Source: Syntrophaceae bacterium (GTDB lineage Bacteria > Desulfobacterota > Syntrophia > Syntrophales > Smithellaceae). Taken from it: DNA of 41,198 bases. Location: positions 1-41,198 of the forward strand of contig PLMQ01000065.1 of the NCBI GenBank assembly GCA_003142535.1. Direction: 5' to 3'. The notes beneath the pieces were generated by a model. That model was not told where the DNA came from. It did no database searches and worked only from the letters and a program-made list of their open reading frames with translations. Of the stretch, positions 12,109-34,131 are shown one piece after another. The translations under genes and the position numbers were made by a program. Numbering within the stretch: the first letter of the stretch is position 1; every line of letters starts with the position of its first letter.

Positions 12109-12219
12109 AACTGTAAATATTTTGGACTTGTAAGTCAAGGCAAAAACAATACCAGTAGAAATCAACCTTAAAACAACAGTTGAAGAGAAATTAACTAAAG
12201 CCCTGCGACTCATTTCATT

Positions 12220-12422
12220 GTGAAACTCCAATTTCCATAACGAAGTGTTGGGGAATTGGTAAGTTGAACAATCCCGCACAGCGGAGGGTATGATGCCCCG
12301 CAGCCTACTGCTAAATGGGTTTTCAAAGCCTGCTTTGGGGTTCATACCCTTGATTCGCGCAGGACAATTCGACTGCTTGTCTTTTCTACGGCTCTGCCTT
12401 GAAAAGACAAGTCTCATTGAAA
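12220..12422 (+). repeat. modular hairpin repeat, copy 3 (composite, upstream of purH)
   Basis: Two joined elements. 12220-12355: GTGAAACTCC, CCAATTTCC/GGGAATTGG hairpin, TAAGTTGAACAATCCCGC, CAGCGGAGGG, then a hairpin ending GGGGTTCATACCCTTGAT. 12356-12422: AGGACAATTCGACTG, hairpin CTTGTCTTTTC / GAAAAGACAAG, then TCTCATTGAAA. The second hairpin has arms unlike any other copy but still perfectly complementary. The composite fills most of the ppiB-purH spacer; the remaining ~80 bp before purH show only its RBS. Confidence 0.82.
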
Positions 12423-17060: not shown

Positions 17061-17876
17061 TCATTCAAAAAATCGTTGATAGGCAGAGACAAAACTCTGC
17101 ACATTAGCCCAGACTAAACCTTCGGCTTTTGCTACTTCTTCCGCATTATGGAAAGTGGAAGAAAAGCTCATAAAAATTTTATCCAGCGGCGAAATGGATA
17201 TCCCCAGTTTCTCATAATCAATATAGCCAATCATGAGCTGAGAACCGTCAAAATAATATTTACCCAGCCGGTTAATTTCCTCCGACCGGAACGGCCAGTT
17301 AATTTTCCATTTAAAAAACTCACGGGCTACGCCTTTTAATAACAGATTGTCAAAAAAATCCGGCTTCAGCTCTTCACCGATTCTATCGGCCAGCAGGCGG
17401 AAATAATTGGTTACCAGATCAATGTCCGTAAGGCAGAGTCCATAGAGATACCAATCATTAATTATTTTAATCATAATCTGCGCCTGATTTACGGGGATAA
17501 AATGATGACTGGGGCAGATATGACCGGCACAGATTTCCTGGCCGTAAAATGAACCCGCCCGCAGATCGAGACCGGAATTTTGCGTCGGATGCAGTAAACA
17601 GCCGACTTTCTTTCCGGCTTCATCCAGAAAGCCGAGGAATTCGCAGCAATAAATAACCGCGTATCTGGGGGTAAAATCTTCCGCAGAAAATGTTGCCTTT
17701 GCATAGCATTCAATATCACCGGGAACTTTCACCAGTTGCCGGAAACGCAACGTACGTAAACGTAAACGCGCGGTAATCGCAGAGAGTGAGCTATCGGCAT
17801 AATTATACAGGCCGCAGCAAGCGCCACAGGATTTCCGCTCATCCGGCTGACAGAAAACTGTCAAATTTGTATCCAT
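17061..17876 (-). CDS. YkgJ-like cysteine-cluster protein
   Basis: 271-aa soluble protein with a cysteine pattern like the YkgJ/CxxCxxCC putative metal-chelating family (PF03692): KSCGACCGLYNY near residue 17, then YCCEFLGF, VGCLLHPTQNSGLDLR and GHICPSHHF. The rest is helical and unrecognised. Function unknown; metal binding is inference from the Cys spacing. Start ATG 17876 (MDTNLTVF) with GGGA 4 nt upstream; 25 upstream codons come from the repeat at 17886-18000. purU lies 195 bp upstream on the same strand with the repeat in between. Confidence 0.72.
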   Translation of the reverse strand: MDTNLTVFCQPDERKSCGACCGLYNYADSSLSAITARLRLRTLRFRQLVKVPGDIECYAKATFSAEDFTPRYAVIYCCEFLGFLDEAGKKVGCLLHPTQNSGLDLRAGSFYGQEICAGHICPSHHFIPVNQAQIMIKIINDWYLYGLCLTDIDLVTNYFRLLADRIGEELKPDFFDNLLLKGVAREFFKWKINWPFRSEEINRLGKYYFDGSQLMIGYIDYEKLGISISPLDKIFMSFSSTFHNAEEVAKAEGLVWANVQSFVSAYQRFFE

Positions 17877-17885
17877 TCGTTCCCA

Positions 17886-18000
17886 ATCACGGGTATGAAC
17901 CCCAAAGCAAGCTGTGGGGTTTTCTTCCCTCTGCTTCGCGGGATTGTTCAACTTACCAATTCCGCTACGCTGCGCTTTCGGAATTGGAGTTTCACAAATA
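17886..18000 (+). repeat. modular hairpin repeat, copy 5
   Basis: A full, clean copy: ATCACGGGTATGAACCCC, AAAGCAAGCTGTGGGG, CCCTCTGCTTCGCGGGATTG, TTCAACTTA, hairpin CCAATTCCG...CGGAATTGG with the loop CTACGCTGCGCTTT, then AGTTTCACAAATA. It sits between purU and the YkgJ-like gene, 10 bp from the latter's start codon, in the opposite orientation to those genes (compare copy 1 next to tyrS). Confidence 0.88.
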
Positions 18001-18071
18001 ATATTATATTTCTTACACTTTTTGGAATTTGCCAGCAGCCAATTTCCAAAAAATATCTTCGCTGAATTTTC

Positions 18072-21942: not shown

Positions 21943-21981
21943 ACTCCCTGATGGCATGAGATAGCATTGCCCGGAAAGATA

Positions 21982-22205
21982 ATCACGGGTATGAATCCCG
22001 CAGCAAACTTTGGAAACCAGTTCCGCAGCTCGTTGCGTGGTATCATACCCTCCGCTGTGCGGGATAATTCGACCTGCAAGTTTCAGTACATTACATTTCT
22101 GAAACTTGGGTCTCATTACAACTTACCAATTTCCGACTTGTGACCTTTAGGTTACTTGTGACCCTCAGGTTATACACTTCGTTAAGGAAATTGGAGTTTC
22201 ACAAT
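21982..22205 (+). repeat. modular hairpin repeat, copy 6 (largest composite, 224 bp)
   Basis: ATCACGGGTATGAATCCC, a TTTGGAAACC segment, GGTATCATACCCTCCGCTGTGCGGGATAATTCGACCTG, hairpin CAAGTTTCAG / CTGAAACTTG, GGTCTCATTA, then CAACTTA with hairpin CCAATTTCC / GGAAATTGG and GAGTTTCACAAT. The loop of the last hairpin holds two tandem copies of a CTTGTGACCYTNAGGTTA unit. Two different variable hairpins therefore sit in one locus. It borders the acyl-CoA module on its left, in the same orientation as copy 7 on its right. Confidence 0.85.
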
Positions 22206-22257
22206 GAGAAAAATAAGTAATATTATCAGCAAGAAGTTAAAAGTTATTTCTTTTTTA

Positions 22258-22347: not shown

Positions 22348-24270
22348 ATGAGCGACAACGATAAGAAGCAGACAAAACGTCAAGCTGACATTCTTAACCA
22401 ATTAAGAGAATCATATCCTGATAAGTTTTGTTCGGAAGAAGAAATATTCAGCCATATCAATCGCGGGGATAGAATATTCATCGGTACCGCCTGCGGAGAA
22501 CCGCAGTATTTGGTAACCGCAATGGCGGAATATATTACCAGCCACCCCAAAGCTATAGCTGATGCCGAAGTTATGCAGATCTGGACACTTGGCGTCGCGC
22601 CTTATACCGATGAAAAATACAACTTCAATTTCCGGCATAATTCCTTTTTTGTCGGTAATAATACAAGGGAGTCGGTCAACTCCGGTTTAGCTGATTACAC
22701 CCCCATTCATCTTTCCCGGATTCCCCAGCTTCTCAAAAATAAAATGATTCCGATCGATATCGCTCTTATCCAGACATCCATACCGGATAAAAACGGCTAT
22801 GTCAGCCTGGGAGTAAGTGTTGATATAACAAAAACAGCAATTGAATGCGCGAAAATTGTCATCGCGCAGCTGAATCCAATGATGCCCCGTGTCCACGGTG
22901 ATACTTTCGTCCACATCAAAGATATTAACTATATGATATATCATGAAGAGGATTTGTTGGAATTTAAAACTCATGTCCCCGATGAAATTGCCCATCAAAT
23001 CGGCCACTATGTGGCGGGTATCGTCAACGATGGCGATACAATCCAAATCGGCTACGGGAGCATGCCCAATGCAATTTTGCACAATCTCATCGATAAAAAG
23101 CACTTGGGAATCCACACCGAGCTTCTGACTCAATCCATGGTGGAGTTAATGAAAAAAGGGGCAATTGACAATTCACAAAAATCCATCGATCGCGGAAAAA
23201 CAGTTGCTTCATTTTGCATGGGCACGAAAGATACTTACGACTTCATCAATGACAATCCCGTTATCCAGTTCCGCGAAATCAACTATACCAATCATCCCCT
23301 GGTGATTGCACAGCATAATAACATGACGGCTATCAATGCCGCCCTGCAGATCGATCTCACCGGCCAAGCGACGGCTGAGTCCATCGGCAGCATGTTTTTC
23401 AGCGGTATCGGCGGAAGCGCCGATTTCATGCGCGGCGCAGTTATTTCTCCCGGGGGGAAGACGATTCTTGTATTGCAATCCACCGCGCGTGACGGAACTG
23501 TTTCACGCATAGTGCCCTTTCTCGAAAGCGGCGCCGGTGTAACGTTGAACCGCGGAGATATCATGTATGTGGTTACCGAATACGGCATAGCTTACCTCAA
23601 TGGAAAAAACATCCGGGAGCGGGCTATGGATCTTATTTCCATAGCTCATCCCAAATTCAGACAGGAACTGATCGAAAGCGCAAAGAAGCTCAACCTTATT
23701 TACCGCGACCAGGCATTCATTCCCGGAAAACGGGGTGAATATCCGGAGCACTTGGAAACAGTAAGAACTACGAGAAGCGGCTTGGTTATCCGTTTGCGTC
23801 CTGTTAGAATCAATGATGAAACGAACATCAAGGATTTCTTTTATTCCCTGTCCGATCAAAGTTTTCAACGGCGGTTTATGTCCTCCCGCAGAGACATGCC
23901 GCATAAATTGAGACAAGATTATGTAGTAATTGATTATTCCAAAGAAATGGTCATTCTTGCCTGTATTGAAGATCAGGGCAAAGAGATTGTTGTCGGTATG
24001 GGCCAAACGATAAAAGACGAAAACCAGATGGCGGAAGTTGCTTTTGCGGTACGCGACGATTATCATAACAAAGGAGTTGGCAGCGAACTTCTTTCTTATT
24101 TAACTGTTTTAGCCAAACGCGAAGGTCTACAGGGCTTTACCGCCGAAGTTCTCGTGGAAAATATACCTATGTTGCATGTCTTTGAGAAAATGATGCCGGA
24201 CATGCATAAAAAAATTAATTATGGAGCGTATGAATTAATTATGCGGTTTGGAGTCAGTCATGAAAAGTAA
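22348..24270 (+). CDS. acetyl-CoA hydrolase/CoA-transferase fused to a C-terminal GNAT domain
   Basis: 640 aa. Residues ~20-460 form an acetyl-CoA hydrolase/4-hydroxybutyrate CoA-transferase-type protein with IQIGYGSMPNAIL, the likely catalytic Glu in GIHTELL (E258), FFSGIGGSADFMRGA and VVTEYGIAYLNGKNIRERA. Residues ~480-640 are a GNAT acetyltransferase (IRLRPVRINDET, VGMGQTIKDENQMAEVAFAV, the acetyl-CoA loop RDDYHNKGVGSELL). Such fusions are known in anaerobes. The first part would move CoA between acetate and another acyl group; the GNAT part could acetylate lysines or act as a sensor (inference). ATG 22348 has only a distant AGGG. It overlaps the next gene by 11 nt. Confidence 0.9.
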   Translation: MSDNDKKQTKRQADILNQLRESYPDKFCSEEEIFSHINRGDRIFIGTACGEPQYLVTAMAEYITSHPKAIADAEVMQIWTLGVAPYTDEKYNFNFRHNSFFVGNNTRESVNSGLADYTPIHLSRIPQLLKNKMIPIDIALIQTSIPDKNGYVSLGVSVDITKTAIECAKIVIAQLNPMMPRVHGDTFVHIKDINYMIYHEEDLLEFKTHVPDEIAHQIGHYVAGIVNDGDTIQIGYGSMPNAILHNLIDKKHLGIHTELLTQSMVELMKKGAIDNSQKSIDRGKTVASFCMGTKDTYDFINDNPVIQFREINYTNHPLVIAQHNNMTAINAALQIDLTGQATAESIGSMFFSGIGGSADFMRGAVISPGGKTILVLQSTARDGTVSRIVPFLESGAGVTLNRGDIMYVVTEYGIAYLNGKNIRERAMDLISIAHPKFRQELIESAKKLNLIYRDQAFIPGKRGEYPEHLETVRTTRSGLVIRLRPVRINDETNIKDFFYSLSDQSFQRRFMSSRRDMPHKLRQDYVVIDYSKEMVILACIEDQGKEIVVGMGQTIKDENQMAEVAFAVRDDYHNKGVGSELLSYLTVLAKREGLQGFTAEVLVENIPMLHVFEKMMPDMHKKINYGAYELIMRFGVSHEK

Positions 24271-26389
24271 TAAGCAACATCCGATAAAGTCACTATTTGA
24301 ACCAAAGAGTTTTGCAATTATAGGTGCGTCCCACGATTCTAAAAAAATCGGCTATGCTGTCGTACGTAATCTTTTAGCCGGCGGCTATAAAGGCAAAATA
24401 TATCCGGTATCTCCCAAGGGAGGTGAAATATCCGGCATTAAAGTATATCCGAGTATTATGGATATAAAAGATGAAATTGATGTCGCATCAATTACCATCC
24501 CGGCGCATCTTTGCGTTGCGGCGGTAAAAGAATGTGCCGCAAAGGGAGTTAAAAATGTCCAGATTATTACTTCCGGCTTTTCCGAGATAGGTAATCACGC
24601 GGACGAAGATGAAATTACACGAATTGCCAATACAACGGGGATGAGGGTTTTGGGTCCGAATATCTTCGGCATGTATTCGGCGAGAGTTTCCATGAATTCG
24701 ACTTTCTCGGCAAGCACGATTGTTCCCGGCAATGTAGCGATTATTACCCAGAGCGGTGCGCTGGGGATCGCCATGATCGGCAAGACAGCTGTGGAAAATA
24801 TGGGTATGTCGGCAATTATTTCCACCGGAAATAAATGCGATATAAGTGAAATCGAACTTTTGGAATATTTGATCGATCAGGAAGAAACTCATGTCATCTT
24901 GATGTATATCGAAGGAGTTAAAAACGGGGATAGACTAATACCGCTTATGCAGAAAGTAGGCAAGATAAAGCCGATTGTCGTCATCAAATCAGGCCGATCG
25001 AAGCGCGGCGCAATGGCCGCTGCATCACATACCGGATCGCTTGCCGGTTCCGATACTATCTTTGATGCCATTATGCGGCAATGTGGTGTCCTTAGGGCAG
25101 AAAGCCTTGATGAAGCCTTTAACTGGTGCAAATTCTTGGCGGCATCCCCGAAACCAAAAGGAAAGCATGTTGTTATCGTGACCAATGGAGGCGGTATCGG
25201 TGTTATGGCGACGGATGCCTGTGAAAAATATGGCGTTGACCTTTATGATAATCAGGGAATATTACATGATACTTTCGGACCGGCCACACCGTCATTCGGC
25301 TCAACAAAAAATCCCGTTGATATTACGGGCGCGGCGATGGCCAATGATTACAATCTGGCGTTAAGCGCACCGGCAACCAGCAAGAATCTGGATGCAACCA
25401 TTGCCCTGTATTGCGAATCGGCAATATTTGATTCGGATAACCTGGCACCAATGATCAGAGACACTTATGAAAAACATGTAAAGCAGGAAAAACCGATAAC
25501 GTATGCCATTGTCGGCGGCGAATCTGTAGAAAAGACTTTGGTAACACTGAGGCGCGAAAATATCCCCGTGTATAGCGATGTTTATCCTGCCGTTTCCTGC
25601 CTCGGAGCTGCTTACAAATATTATAATTATCAGGAATTGCCTATTGATCCCCCTGATTTTGCAACAATAGATGAGCAGGCAATCAATAATCTCATCGATA
25701 CGGTTCAAAAAGACGGCAGAAATTTTCTTCTCGCGCATGAAGCACAGGAGGTCATGCGTGTTGCCGGCATCAACATGCCCAAAAGCAAGGTTGCCAGAAA
25801 TTTGACTGAAGCAATTACAGCGGCAAATGATATGGGATTCCCTATCGTCATGAAAGTAGTTTCCCGTGACATCATCCATAAAAGTGATGCCGGAGGTATT
25901 GCGCTCGGCCTGGATAATGTTGATGAAGTTATTGATGCTTATGAAGCTATCATGAAAAATTGCAAGGCCTATAATCCTAACGCGATGATTACCGGAGTTG
26001 AACTTGCTGAAATGGTTACACCGGGACTGGAGCTTGTCGTTGGGGCAATCCGCGATGGATCTTTCGGCCCCATTGTCATGTGCGGACTAGGCGGCGTTTA
26101 TGTAGAAGTTATGAAGGATGTAAGTTTCCGTTCCTATCCGCTAAACCACAAAGAGGTTCACACCATGCTGCAGGAGATTCGTTCATTCCCTTTGCTGATG
26201 GGTGTGCGCGGAGAAAAAAAGAAGTATATTGAAGGTGTGATCGATACGATTATCAAAGTTGGTACGATTCTGCATTACTGCCCGCAAATAACCGATATTG
26301 AAATTAATCCCCTTCGCGTTTACGAACAACAAAAAGGGATAAAAGCCTTAGACGTTAGAATTTTATTAAGAAAATCCGGAGGAAAATAA
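24260..26389 (+). CDS. ADP-forming acyl-CoA synthetase (fused alpha-beta)
   Basis: 709 aa. N-terminal CoA-binding domain (~10-110; LFEPKSFAIIGASHDSKKIG), succinyl-CoA-ligase-like flavodoxin domains (~125-450; LGPNIFGMYS, ITQSGALGIA, the phosphohistidine region AAASHTGSLAGSD with H257, TNGGGIGVMATDACE), and a C-terminal ATP-grasp domain (~490-709; IVMKVVSRDIIHKSDAGGIALGL, GVELAEMVTPGLELVVGAI, FGPIVMCGLGG, DIEINPLRVY). It interconverts acyl-CoA + ADP + Pi with acid + CoA + ATP. The GNAT domain that follows this fold in Pat/YfiQ-type acetyltransferases is absent here but present at the end of the upstream gene. ATG 24260 has GGAG 6 nt upstream. Confidence 0.92.
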   Translation: MKSNKQHPIKSLFEPKSFAIIGASHDSKKIGYAVVRNLLAGGYKGKIYPVSPKGGEISGIKVYPSIMDIKDEIDVASITIPAHLCVAAVKECAAKGVKNVQIITSGFSEIGNHADEDEITRIANTTGMRVLGPNIFGMYSARVSMNSTFSASTIVPGNVAIITQSGALGIAMIGKTAVENMGMSAIISTGNKCDISEIELLEYLIDQEETHVILMYIEGVKNGDRLIPLMQKVGKIKPIVVIKSGRSKRGAMAAASHTGSLAGSDTIFDAIMRQCGVLRAESLDEAFNWCKFLAASPKPKGKHVVIVTNGGGIGVMATDACEKYGVDLYDNQGILHDTFGPATPSFGSTKNPVDITGAAMANDYNLALSAPATSKNLDATIALYCESAIFDSDNLAPMIRDTYEKHVKQEKPITYAIVGGESVEKTLVTLRRENIPVYSDVYPAVSCLGAAYKYYNYQELPIDPPDFATIDEQAINNLIDTVQKDGRNFLLAHEAQEVMRVAGINMPKSKVARNLTEAITAANDMGFPIVMKVVSRDIIHKSDAGGIALGLDNVDEVIDAYEAIMKNCKAYNPNAMITGVELAEMVTPGLELVVGAIRDGSFGPIVMCGLGGVYVEVMKDVSFRSYPLNHKEVHTMLQEIRSFPLLMGVRGEKKKYIEGVIDTIIKVGTILHYCPQITDIEINPLRVYEQQKGIKALDVRILLRKSGGK

Positions 26390-26390
26390 A

Positions 26391-27428
26391 ATGAAGACCA
26401 TCGTTATTGCATCAACGCGAGAAAGCGCAGGAAAAACCAGTATTATCACTGGAATTTTAGCCGCCAGCGGCTCTCGATGTGGATATATCAAGCCTTTCGG
26501 CGATCGCCTGATTTACCGGCACAAACGGAACTGGGATTACGATGCCAGCCTTATTATTGATATATTCAAACTCAACGAAGAAGCAGAGAACATTACACTG
26601 GGATTTGACCATTCCAAACTCCGTTACGTATATGACGAAGAAAACATCAAAAAAACTTTGAAGCAGATGGTCACTACAGTTGGCAGCGGCAAGGATTTCG
26701 TTTTTGCCGAGGGAGGAAAAGACATTTTTCACGGTTCATCCCTGCATCTTGACTCTTTGTCGGTGGTAGAATATTTGGATGCGAAATTAGTTTTAGTAGT
26801 CAGCGGAGACAATGACACTGTTCTTGATGATCTCCATTTTGTAAAACGACATATCGATTGCATGGGAATTAATTTCGGTGGTGTCATCATCAACAAGATT
26901 CAGGATCTCGACGAATTTGAAAATGTTTATTTGAAAGAAATCAAGGACATGAAAATTCCCATTTTGGGCATTATACCATCAAAAATCCAGCTGACCCATT
27001 TTACAATCAACTATCTGGCGGAAAAGCTTTATGCCAAAGTTATTGCCGGAGATAAGGGAATTAACAACGTGGTTAAAAACATCTTCGTGGGCGCCATGTC
27101 CACAGATGAATCCTTGAGAAACCCTCTGTTCAATAAAGAGCATAAATTTTTGATCACCAGCGGCGATAGAAGCGATATGATTCTGGCCGCACTCGATAGC
27201 GATACAAGAGGAATTTTATTGACTAATAATATTTTGCCGCCGTCACATATCATTGCCAAAGCCGACGACAAAAAAATCCCTTTATTGCTATTAACAATGG
27301 ATACATACGAGGCAACAAAACAAATTGACAAGATGGAAGCTCTACTTACGTCGGACAATACTGAGCGGATACAAATGCTTGGACAGCTTGTTGCAAAATA
27401 TTGTAAGATAGAAGACATAACTCGCTAG
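26391..27428 (+). CDS. P-loop/DRTGG protein (phosphotransacetylase N-terminal-like, no catalytic domain)
   Basis: 345 aa. N-terminal dethiobiotin-synthetase-like P-loop domain (~1-215) with ASTRESAGKTSI as nucleotide-binding loop, KPFGDRL, EGGKDIFHG, LVVSGDN and GVIINKI. Then a DRTGG-type domain (~220-340) with FLITSGDRSDMILAAL and ILLTNNILPP. This equals the regulatory N-terminal half of long Pta enzymes, but the PTA_PTB catalytic domain is missing, so it is not a phosphotransacetylase. It begins 1 bp after the synthetase stop and ends the operon; a nucleotide-responsive regulator of the acyl-CoA enzymes is plausible. Confidence 0.85.
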   Translation: MKTIVIASTRESAGKTSIITGILAASGSRCGYIKPFGDRLIYRHKRNWDYDASLIIDIFKLNEEAENITLGFDHSKLRYVYDEENIKKTLKQMVTTVGSGKDFVFAEGGKDIFHGSSLHLDSLSVVEYLDAKLVLVVSGDNDTVLDDLHFVKRHIDCMGINFGGVIINKIQDLDEFENVYLKEIKDMKIPILGIIPSKIQLTHFTINYLAEKLYAKVIAGDKGINNVVKNIFVGAMSTDESLRNPLFNKEHKFLITSGDRSDMILAALDSDTRGILLTNNILPPSHIIAKADDKKIPLLLLTMDTYEATKQIDKMEALLTSDNTERIQMLGQLVAKYCKIEDITR

Positions 27429-27495
27429 TAATAGATAGTGAATTTTGTTTAACAACACTGGCATACGTCATGGTTGGCGGATTCTATTCGCGTTG

Positions 27496-27610
27496 ATCAC
27501 GGGTATGAACCCCCAAAGCAAGCTGCGGCGTATTGTACCCTCCGCTTCGCGGGATTGTTCAACTTACCAGTTCCGATGCGCTGCGCTTTCGGAATTGGAG
27601 TTTCACAAAT
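27496..27610 (+). repeat. modular hairpin repeat, copy 7
   Basis: Full copy: ATCACGGGTATGAACCCCC, AAAGCAAGCTGCGGCG, ACCCTCCGCTTCGCGGGATTG, TTCAACTTA, CCAGTTCCG/CGGAATTGG hairpin (one arm mismatch, loop ATGCGCTGCGCTTT), AGTTTCACAAATA. It lies between the acyl-CoA operon and the rplU promoter, in the same orientation as copy 6. Confidence 0.88.
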
Positions 27611-27630
27611 AAATTGTCTGTTAAATTATA

Positions 27631-32678: not shown

Positions 32679-32738
32679 AGAGTATAAAAACTTTTGGGGG
32701 TTAAGCGAACAGGACAATTCAGACTTAAAGCATACAGA

Positions 32739-32889
32739 ATCACGGGTATGAACCCCAAAGCAAGATTTGGAAGCTGATTGCGCAGTCCGCCGCAGGCGGA
32801 TTCAACTAACCAATTCCGGCTTGTAACCTCTCGTGACCTTTAGGTTATTAGGTTATGCACTTTGCTTTCGGAATTGGAGTTTCACAAAT
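32739..32889 (+). repeat. modular hairpin repeat, copy 9
   Basis: ATCACGGGTATGAACCCC, AAAGCAAGATTTGG, the substituted middle hairpin GTCCGCCGCAGGCGGATTCAAC, TAACCAATTCCG...CGGAATTGG with a long loop containing CTTGTAACCTCTCGTGACCTTTAGGTTATTAGGTTA-type units, then AGTTTCACAAATA. A short related fragment AGGACAATTCAGACTTA lies at 32710-32727. It lies between the convergent APC and hydrolase genes. Confidence 0.86.
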
Positions 32890-32890
32890 A

Positions 32891-32930
32891 AAAAACCTCG
32901 TTGCAGTCAGTATTCGGGGCTTTTTGTTTT
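32891..32930. terminator. bidirectional terminator between APC gene and hydrolase
   Basis: AAAAACCTCG (32891-32900) / CGGGGCTTTTT (32915-32925): stem CCTCG/CGGGG flanked by A-run and T-run, so a T-run follows the hairpin on either strand. It separates the convergent genes ending at 32678 and 32950. Confidence 0.6.
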
Positions 32931-33774: not shown

Positions 33775-33982
33775 CTCATCACCTCGTACATAAATTTGCT
33801 ATGCATTTACAAAATATTTCATGTATCTGCAAGTATTATATAGCTCTTTTCTTTCATAGTGTTCATTAAACATATTTTTTGAAAATATCCACTGATTTTC
33901 AGTACACTGGATAATTATTTACTGTTTTGTATTTAATATTGATATTGCCAAGATAATAGTTTAAATTATAGACAATTAATTA
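33775..33982. other. AT-rich intergenic spacer, no gene seen
   Basis: 208 bp between the divergent hydrolase and lemA. A weak minus-strand promoter candidate, TTGCAG (~33833-33828), 17-bp spacer, TAAATG (~33810-33805), could serve the hydrolase. I see no RNA gene, ORF or repeat in it. Confidence 0.4.
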
Positions 33983-34116
33983 ATCACAGGTATGAACTCC
34001 AAAGCAAGCTTTGGAAATAGATTGCGTAGTCCGCCGCAGGCGGATTCAACTTACCGATTCCGACTTGTGACCTTTAGGTTATGCGCTTCGCTTTCGGAAT
34101 TGGAGTCTCACAAATA
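33983..34116 (+). repeat. modular hairpin repeat, copy 10 (upstream of lemA)
   Basis: ATCACAGGTATGAACTCC, AAAGCAAGCTTTGG, GTCCGCCGCAGGCGGATTCAAC, TTACCGATTCCG...CGGAATTGG with one CTTGTGACCTTTAGGTTA unit in the loop, AGTCTCACAAATA. It ends 3 bp before the AAGGAGGAGG ribosome binding site of lemA, so the lemA leader is made of repeat. Compared with copy 6 it has one instead of two loop units. Confidence 0.87.
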
Positions 34117-34131
34117 AGAAGGAGGAGGACT

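Follow-up and report, generated by a model that had tools for sequence, protein, structure and literature searches.

What might be the role of three adjacent genes in which a CoA-transferase carries an acetyltransferase domain, an acyl-CoA synthetase follows without one, and half of a phosphotransacetylase comes last? This question is raised by positions 22348-27428, on the forward strand, of the window, by which we mean the whole stretch of 41,198 nucleotides that was analysed. The genome holding the operon comprises 2.93 Mb in 70 contigs, and the operon lies on contig C68. Gene 1 (22348-24270, 640 aa) consists of a CoA-transferase (CoAT) part resembling 4-hydroxybutyrate/butyryl-CoA:acetate CoA-transferases (22348-23742), followed by a C-terminal, Pat-like GNAT domain with the stop codon (23743-24270). 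Gene 2 (24260-26389, 709 aa, the stop ending at 26389) encodes a single-chain ADP-forming acyl-CoA synthetase (ACD) and overlaps gene 1 by 11 nt (24260-24270). The open-frame listing puts a TTG for this gene at 24248; we took the ATG at 24260, because it yields the H257 numbering of the first reading. Gene 3 (26391-27428, 345 aa) begins one base past gene 2 and encodes a BioD-like P-loop domain (AAA_26) and a DRTGG domain. Upstream lies a radical SAM/DUF2344 gene, and downstream lie genes named by eye as L21, ObgE and proB.

An earlier note had interpreted the locus as a reshuffling of domains, with the GNAT domain at the C-terminus of the CoA-transferase, an adjacent synthetase overlapping it by 11 nt and lacking GNAT, and, as the third gene, the P-loop/DRTGG half of Pta devoid of its catalytic domain. 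The coordinates and the Pfam assignments bear out this description. Gene 1 comprises AcetylCoA_hydro (residues 17-203), AcetylCoA_hyd_C (292-445) and the GNAT family Acetyltransf_1 (522-615); gene 2 unites CoA_binding_2, Succ_CoA_lig, Ligase_CoA_2 and ATP-grasp_5 in one protein, with no GNAT; and gene 3 comprises AAA_26 (2-202) and DRTGG (209-314), with no PTA_PTB match. A search of the same genome with a GNAT query returned two CoAT-GNAT proteins and a 182-aa frame, and no ACD-GNAT protein was found, in line with the reshuffling. The second CoAT-GNAT protein (G000:C12:261417-263249) is 32% identical to gene 1, and such fusions are common across the order, also outside this operon. Among the gene-3 loci fetched from named species genomes (see below), the CoAT and GNAT parts share a single frame in 52 of 53 cases, the remaining one being split (L111).

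The residues expected of working enzymes are retained in genes 1 and 2. Gene 1 matches the 4-hydroxybutyrate CoA-transferases of the PDB (E 1e-112), and its E258, which we take to be the catalytic glutamate of the transferase, is invariant in a set of 44 complete operons, window included. Gene 2 matches PDB 8wzu over its full length (E 3e-141), and E218, H257 and H540 are present in 44/44 complete operons and in 18/18 divergent ACDs. We assume that H257 is the phospho-histidine, E218 its glutamate and H540 the second histidine. The positions given in the earlier note for E258 and H257 are correct, and both residues are intact. Both proteins fall below every NCBIfam cut-off, gene 1 with at best 273 against 674.8 bits (TIGR03948) and gene 2 with at best 579 against 1300, or with 494 where the acetate-CoA ligase alpha model demands 567; neither can consequently be given a substrate. 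Five lysines that are invariant in the operon ACDs (K192, K237, K243, K532 and K541) were considered as a clue to acylation targets and dismissed; they point to no target, because 17-18 of the 18 divergent ACDs keep them too. The predicted model of gene 1 is of middling quality (pLDDT 71.5), and no argument rests on it.

The nearest solved relatives of the GNAT domain are lysine acetyltransferase/Pat chains (E 9e-13 to 8e-9), and its E563 aligns with E235 of 4ava, the Pat catalytic glutamate. The acetyl-CoA-binding residues, whose retention the earlier note had made a touchstone of its proposal, are kept: G576 and G578 are found in 44/44 operons, within a loop R/Q-x-x-G-x-G/A whose first position is Q in 36 and H, as in the window, in 8. 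N605, M608 and F612 are likewise invariant (44/44). The position of E563 is less strict, with E in 34 of the 44 operons and D in the other 10, which would suit a domain that acylates nothing and serves to sense acetyl-CoA or to support the structure. According to excerpts of PMC8556138, the Pat glutamate is not strictly required and accessory acyl-CoA-binding domains do regulate. We nevertheless find a mere sensor somewhat unlikely, given the invariant G-x-G of the CoA loop, the three further invariant residues and the identity of the nearest solved relatives. Protein acylation by the GNAT domain is the reading that we prefer.

Gene 3 matches the first half of PRK05632, and AAA_26 and DRTGG were found in all 43 relatives scanned, PTA_PTB being absent from the families listed. 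Its predicted model (pLDDT 88.3) is structurally closest to dethiobiotin synthetases (Z 17-19), followed by CTP synthases (Z about 15), and it also resembles the DRTGG domain of AF1212, the nearest solved one. In the operon form G14-K15-T16, K34, D49, D51, E107, D146, G258-D259-R260 and D262, and with them the GKT and GDRxD motifs, are invariant in the 44 complete operons, and N168 is found in 43. K34, D51, E107 and N168 presumably correspond to BioD ATP/metal residues, an equivalence based on residue spacing and general knowledge of BioD, the alignments being weak at E107 and N168. Such features could indicate an enzyme, not a regulator, with a BioD-like head that transfers phosphate to a carboxylate or splits ATP in acid activation beside the ACD. 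Outside the operon form, T16, D51 and E107 vary among 20 divergent gene-3 relatives and, in the one Pta compared (G052), K34, D51 and E107 are replaced, K15 and T16 being kept. However, an ACD requires no such step, and the degenerate state of the divergent forms that also adjoin an ACD means that the role they share cannot be catalytic; together with the uncertain residue equivalences, this makes an enzymatic gene 3 improbable in our judgement. We favor a nucleotide-binding partner of the synthetase.

Gene 3 was also considered as the sign of a nearby Pta and rejected as such, as its own genome has no PTA_PTB match. The converse idea, a genome without any phosphotransacylase, is ruled out by a 775-aa protein in which cNMP-binding, acetate kinase and PTAC (PduL-type phosphotransacylase) domains are fused (L148:1220-3547, contig C34 of the same genome); several relatives have AckA matches that lie in frames some 780-930 aa long. 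Across 59 Syntrophales-type genomes there was no contrast by which gene 3 and Pta might be seen to exclude each other: only G052 strongly matches the whole PTA_PTB profile, and weaker, Ptb-like matches occur in 5 of 19 genomes with gene 3. Two further arrangements of gene 3 were seen, namely a second, tandem copy behind the first one (four loci of Spirochaetes, L065, L068, L070 and L071) and an adjoining gene, named by eye as cytidylate-kinase-like, in L042, L045 and L047 (G012, G043 and G056).

The co-occurrence of the three genes, on which the earlier note had also staked its interpretation, was examined beyond the order by scanning named species genomes with a gene-3 profile and fetching the best 80 of 174 relatives, all MAG-titled. 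The order CoAT-GNAT, ACD, gene 3 is found in 49 of these 80 loci, a sample picked by likeness to the query and no census, and in 74 an ACD immediately precedes gene 3. Since it recurs in 49 of the 80, the three-gene order is more than chance. The CoAT is partial or split in six of the 49; in five further loci the contig starts inside the GNAT domain, in four, CoAT-GNAT precedes gene 3 and the ACD is missing, and two (L062 and L134) have neither gene. The 57 loci whose upstream sequence extends for 4.2 kb or more comprise 43 full ones, 10 with the ACD only (in one of these, L075, CoAT-GNAT lies farther upstream), 2 with CoAT-GNAT only and 2 with neither. The 49 full-order loci bear eight bacterial group labels (Spirochaetes, Bradymonadales, Deltaproteobacteria/Thermodesulfobacteriota, Eisenbacteria, Zixiibacteriota, Dehalococcoidia, Bipolaricaulota/Acetothermia and Neomarinimicrobiota) and four archaeal ones (Theionarchaea, Thermoplasmata, Altiarchaeota and Euryarchaeota), as given by MAG titles that may be wrong for single contigs. 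With frames overlying the three genes excluded, no other neighbour family occurs in more than six loci, and no fourth operon member emerged; in six loci gene 3 is followed by a gene that, by eye, was named phosphomannomutase-like. As a whole, the earlier interpretation is partly supported: it holds for the co-occurrence, the CoA-loop residues and the reshuffling, the GNAT glutamate is D in the 10 operons mentioned above, and a single complex controlled by acetylation and nucleotides stays a proposal.

Within the 59 Syntrophales-type genomes the picture is more varied. Every one of the 59 has ACD relatives and 56 have CoAT relatives; gene-3 matches of any kind occur in 23, and close gene-3 relatives (at least 40% identity) in 19. 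The closest gene-2 relatives (at least 48% identity, E <1e-200) adjoin gene 3 in 15 of 15 cases. All three genes are clustered in only 8 of the 59 genomes, six times as 1-2-3 and twice as 2-3-1 (G009 and G025). Seven of the 19 gene-3 genomes have the ACD and gene 3 with no CoAT alongside, and three have CoAT-GNAT and gene 3 with no intact ACD; G041, where the ACD is not intact, retains a 181-aa frame with an ACD-like end, and G043 has gene 3 alone. Such permuted orders and missing members, and the inferential nature of product contact, would be accommodated if the genes were merely co-regulated, serving the same pathway through products that do not touch. This explanation appears improbable to us, because precisely these three genes come together again and again, closely joined, amid neighbours that are otherwise unrelated, and because the pairing of ACD and gene 3 persists at 25-31% identity. 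Overlaps between genes 1 and 2, with starts projected from the alignment, are also seen in 37 of the 43 other operons. A physical or functional unit remains our preferred reading.

The pairing of ACD and gene 3 deserves closer attention. Of 297 genomes from the phylum, 159 have a match to the gene-3 profile at E 0.001, a count that takes in full-length Pta; 19 of these score above 440 bits. We took 20 divergent stand-alone relatives (25-31% identity) that led the following tier of scores; an ACD (35-39% identity) is directly adjacent at 16 of these 20 loci. At L177 and L182 it lies 1.2 or 2.4 kb off, none was seen at L179, and at L186 the contig breaks off. The 20 divergent loci yielded no CoAT, and L170 has a GNAT-plus-ACD frame at the locus edge. 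The 20 close loci of the phylum set, several of which are the same contigs as in the 80-locus set and hence not independent of it, comprise 10 with the full 1-2-3 order, 2 with 2-3-1, 3 with CoAT-GNAT and gene 3, 3 with ACD and gene 3, 1 truncated within the GNAT domain and 1 with gene 3 alone. Because the divergent stand-alone relatives also adjoin an ACD, the ACD and gene 3 are probably the older pair, which CoAT-GNAT joined afterwards. Judging from these neighbourhoods, the link between ACD and gene 3 looks both older and tighter than their link to CoAT-GNAT.

The three genes of the cassette share an inheritance. In the 44 complete operons the tree-distance correlations are 0.70 (genes 1-2), 0.72 (2-3) and 0.77 (1-3), and the highest values reached after permutation are 0.21, 0.16 and 0.32, respectively; the correlations do not distinguish coupling from species history, which contributes to them. 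In all three gene trees the genes of the window group with those of the Spirochaetes loci L059 and L060 (support 0.94, 1.0 and 0.85). Within the same family, operon proteins 1, 2 and 3 reach at most 63, 61 and 50% identity, whereas the neighbouring ObgE is up to 84% identical (to G003). Based on this grouping and on the low in-family identity compared with ObgE, the operon of the window was probably acquired horizontally, as one unit, from outside. A wrongly binned contig was considered and is unlikely, in view of the ObgE identity and of a dispersed repeat of this genome that flanks the operon on both sides. This intergenic repeat, about 110-180 bp long, has 46 matches in the genome; the copies in the window lie at 2009-2118, 12212-12304, 17886-18001, 21981-22211 (degenerate), 27490-27615, 32738-32894 and 33982-34120. 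Beside one of them lies an open frame of 296 aa (17061-17951, reverse strand) that matches no Pfam family.

What, then, might the cassette do? We propose that the three genes constitute one translationally coupled acyl-CoA energy unit, probably mobile as a module; to this mechanism as a whole we give an even chance. Gene 2 would reversibly convert acyl-CoA, ADP and Pi into the acid, ATP and CoA via its phospho-histidine. The CoAT part of gene 1 would move CoA between acids, so that other acyl-CoAs could feed gene 2 or derive from its product. The GNAT domain may use acetyl- or acyl-CoA to acylate lysines of the unit or of another synthetase, for example the AMP-forming Acs of the same genome, and this acylation would act as feedback of the acyl-CoA status. 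That Acs carries PKTRSGK, which we take to be a Pat target motif, and the genome also carries a sirtuin. Gene 3 may bind nucleotide as the partner of gene 2, an in-trans version of the role of the P-loop/DRTGG part in class II Pta; in E. coli, excerpts of PMC12724200 report, the N-terminal part of this enzyme is required for full activity and oligomerisation. The activities, direction and substrates of the cassette, the contact of its proteins in a complex, the acylation targets and the regulation are what we infer from gene order, domains and conserved residues.

Several observations count against such a unit: the gene order varies, few Syntrophales-type genomes have the full cluster, the GNAT glutamate gives way to D in 10 of the 44 operons, the CoA loop of the window has H in place of Q, and the cNMP-AckA-PduL fusion of the same genome offers a second route from acetyl-CoA to ATP. 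In Syntrophus aciditrophicus, moreover, ATP comes mainly from the AMP-forming Acs1 and the nine annotated ACDs are weakly expressed, as stated in excerpts of PMC4992975; caution is therefore needed in assigning the main flux to the cassette. A bolder version, a mobile bacterial and archaeal module in which an intact ACD is run by an ATP-active BioD/DRTGG partner and a CoAT-GNAT acylates the module or Acs, seems unlikely to us. If it were true, the regulatory half of Pta and the GNAT of Pat would be parts that move among acyl-CoA enzymes, and CoAT-GNAT would be a further protein acyltransferase architecture, one that reads the acyl-CoA pool. Under the main proposal, too, the CoA-transferase would join the proteins bearing Pat-like GNATs, and stand-alone Pta-like regulatory proteins such as DVU3031 would gain a likely partner, the ADP-forming synthetase. 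That proposal also makes it testable how anaerobes near the energy limit might combine the exchange of acids with ATP formation and feedback in a single unit.

All parts of the cassette belong to known families. No description of the cassette or of a CoA-transferase-GNAT protein was found in the open-access literature searched, which does not prove its absence. Gene 2 shares its full length and both histidines with the ADP-forming synthetases 8wzu (a 4-hydroxybutyrate-CoA ligase) and 4xyl (presumably the Korarchaeum ACD), but it differs from them in falling below every NCBIfam cut-off and in being tied to gene 3 and mostly to CoAT-GNAT as well. Gene 3 shares the P-loop and DRTGG domains of the N-terminal half of class II phosphotransacetylase, and the fold of the E. 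coli Pta N-domain (7t85); unlike that enzyme, it lacks PTA_PTB and stands alone beside an ACD. Its nearest stand-alone relative that we found discussed is DVU3031 of Desulfovibrio vulgaris, an AAA + DRTGG protein beside pta-ack that excerpts of PMC4481167 call of unknown function; the same excerpts report that its homologs are usually absent from other Desulfovibrio and that six species have a putative ACD in place of Ack-Pta. In Archaeoglobus, AF_1211 is listed as an acetate-CoA ligase in the part of PMC8359953 at hand, and, judging from the tag numbers, it would adjoin AF1212. The published descriptions through which these two loci were compared, available as excerpts, mention CoAT-GNAT for neither DVU3031 nor AF1212. 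The Bacillus AcuABC operon likewise joins a GNAT and a nucleotide-binding protein in the control of acetyl-CoA synthesis, but, in the excerpted account of PMC13039410, AcuB is a CBS-ACT protein acting on the deacetylase AcuC, and the cassette has no deacetylase. The Pat/YfiQ (PatZ) lysine acetyltransferases of types I and II combine a GNAT with an acyl-CoA synthetase of the NDP-forming kind; the cassette has such a synthetase and a Pat-like GNAT in adjacent genes. In those types the two form one chain and the synthetase is inactive, without its catalytic histidine (PMC8556138, excerpts). The cassette differs in both respects, as its synthetase is a separate protein with H257 and H540 and its GNAT domain is borne by a CoA-transferase, an architecture outside the types I-V named in those excerpts.
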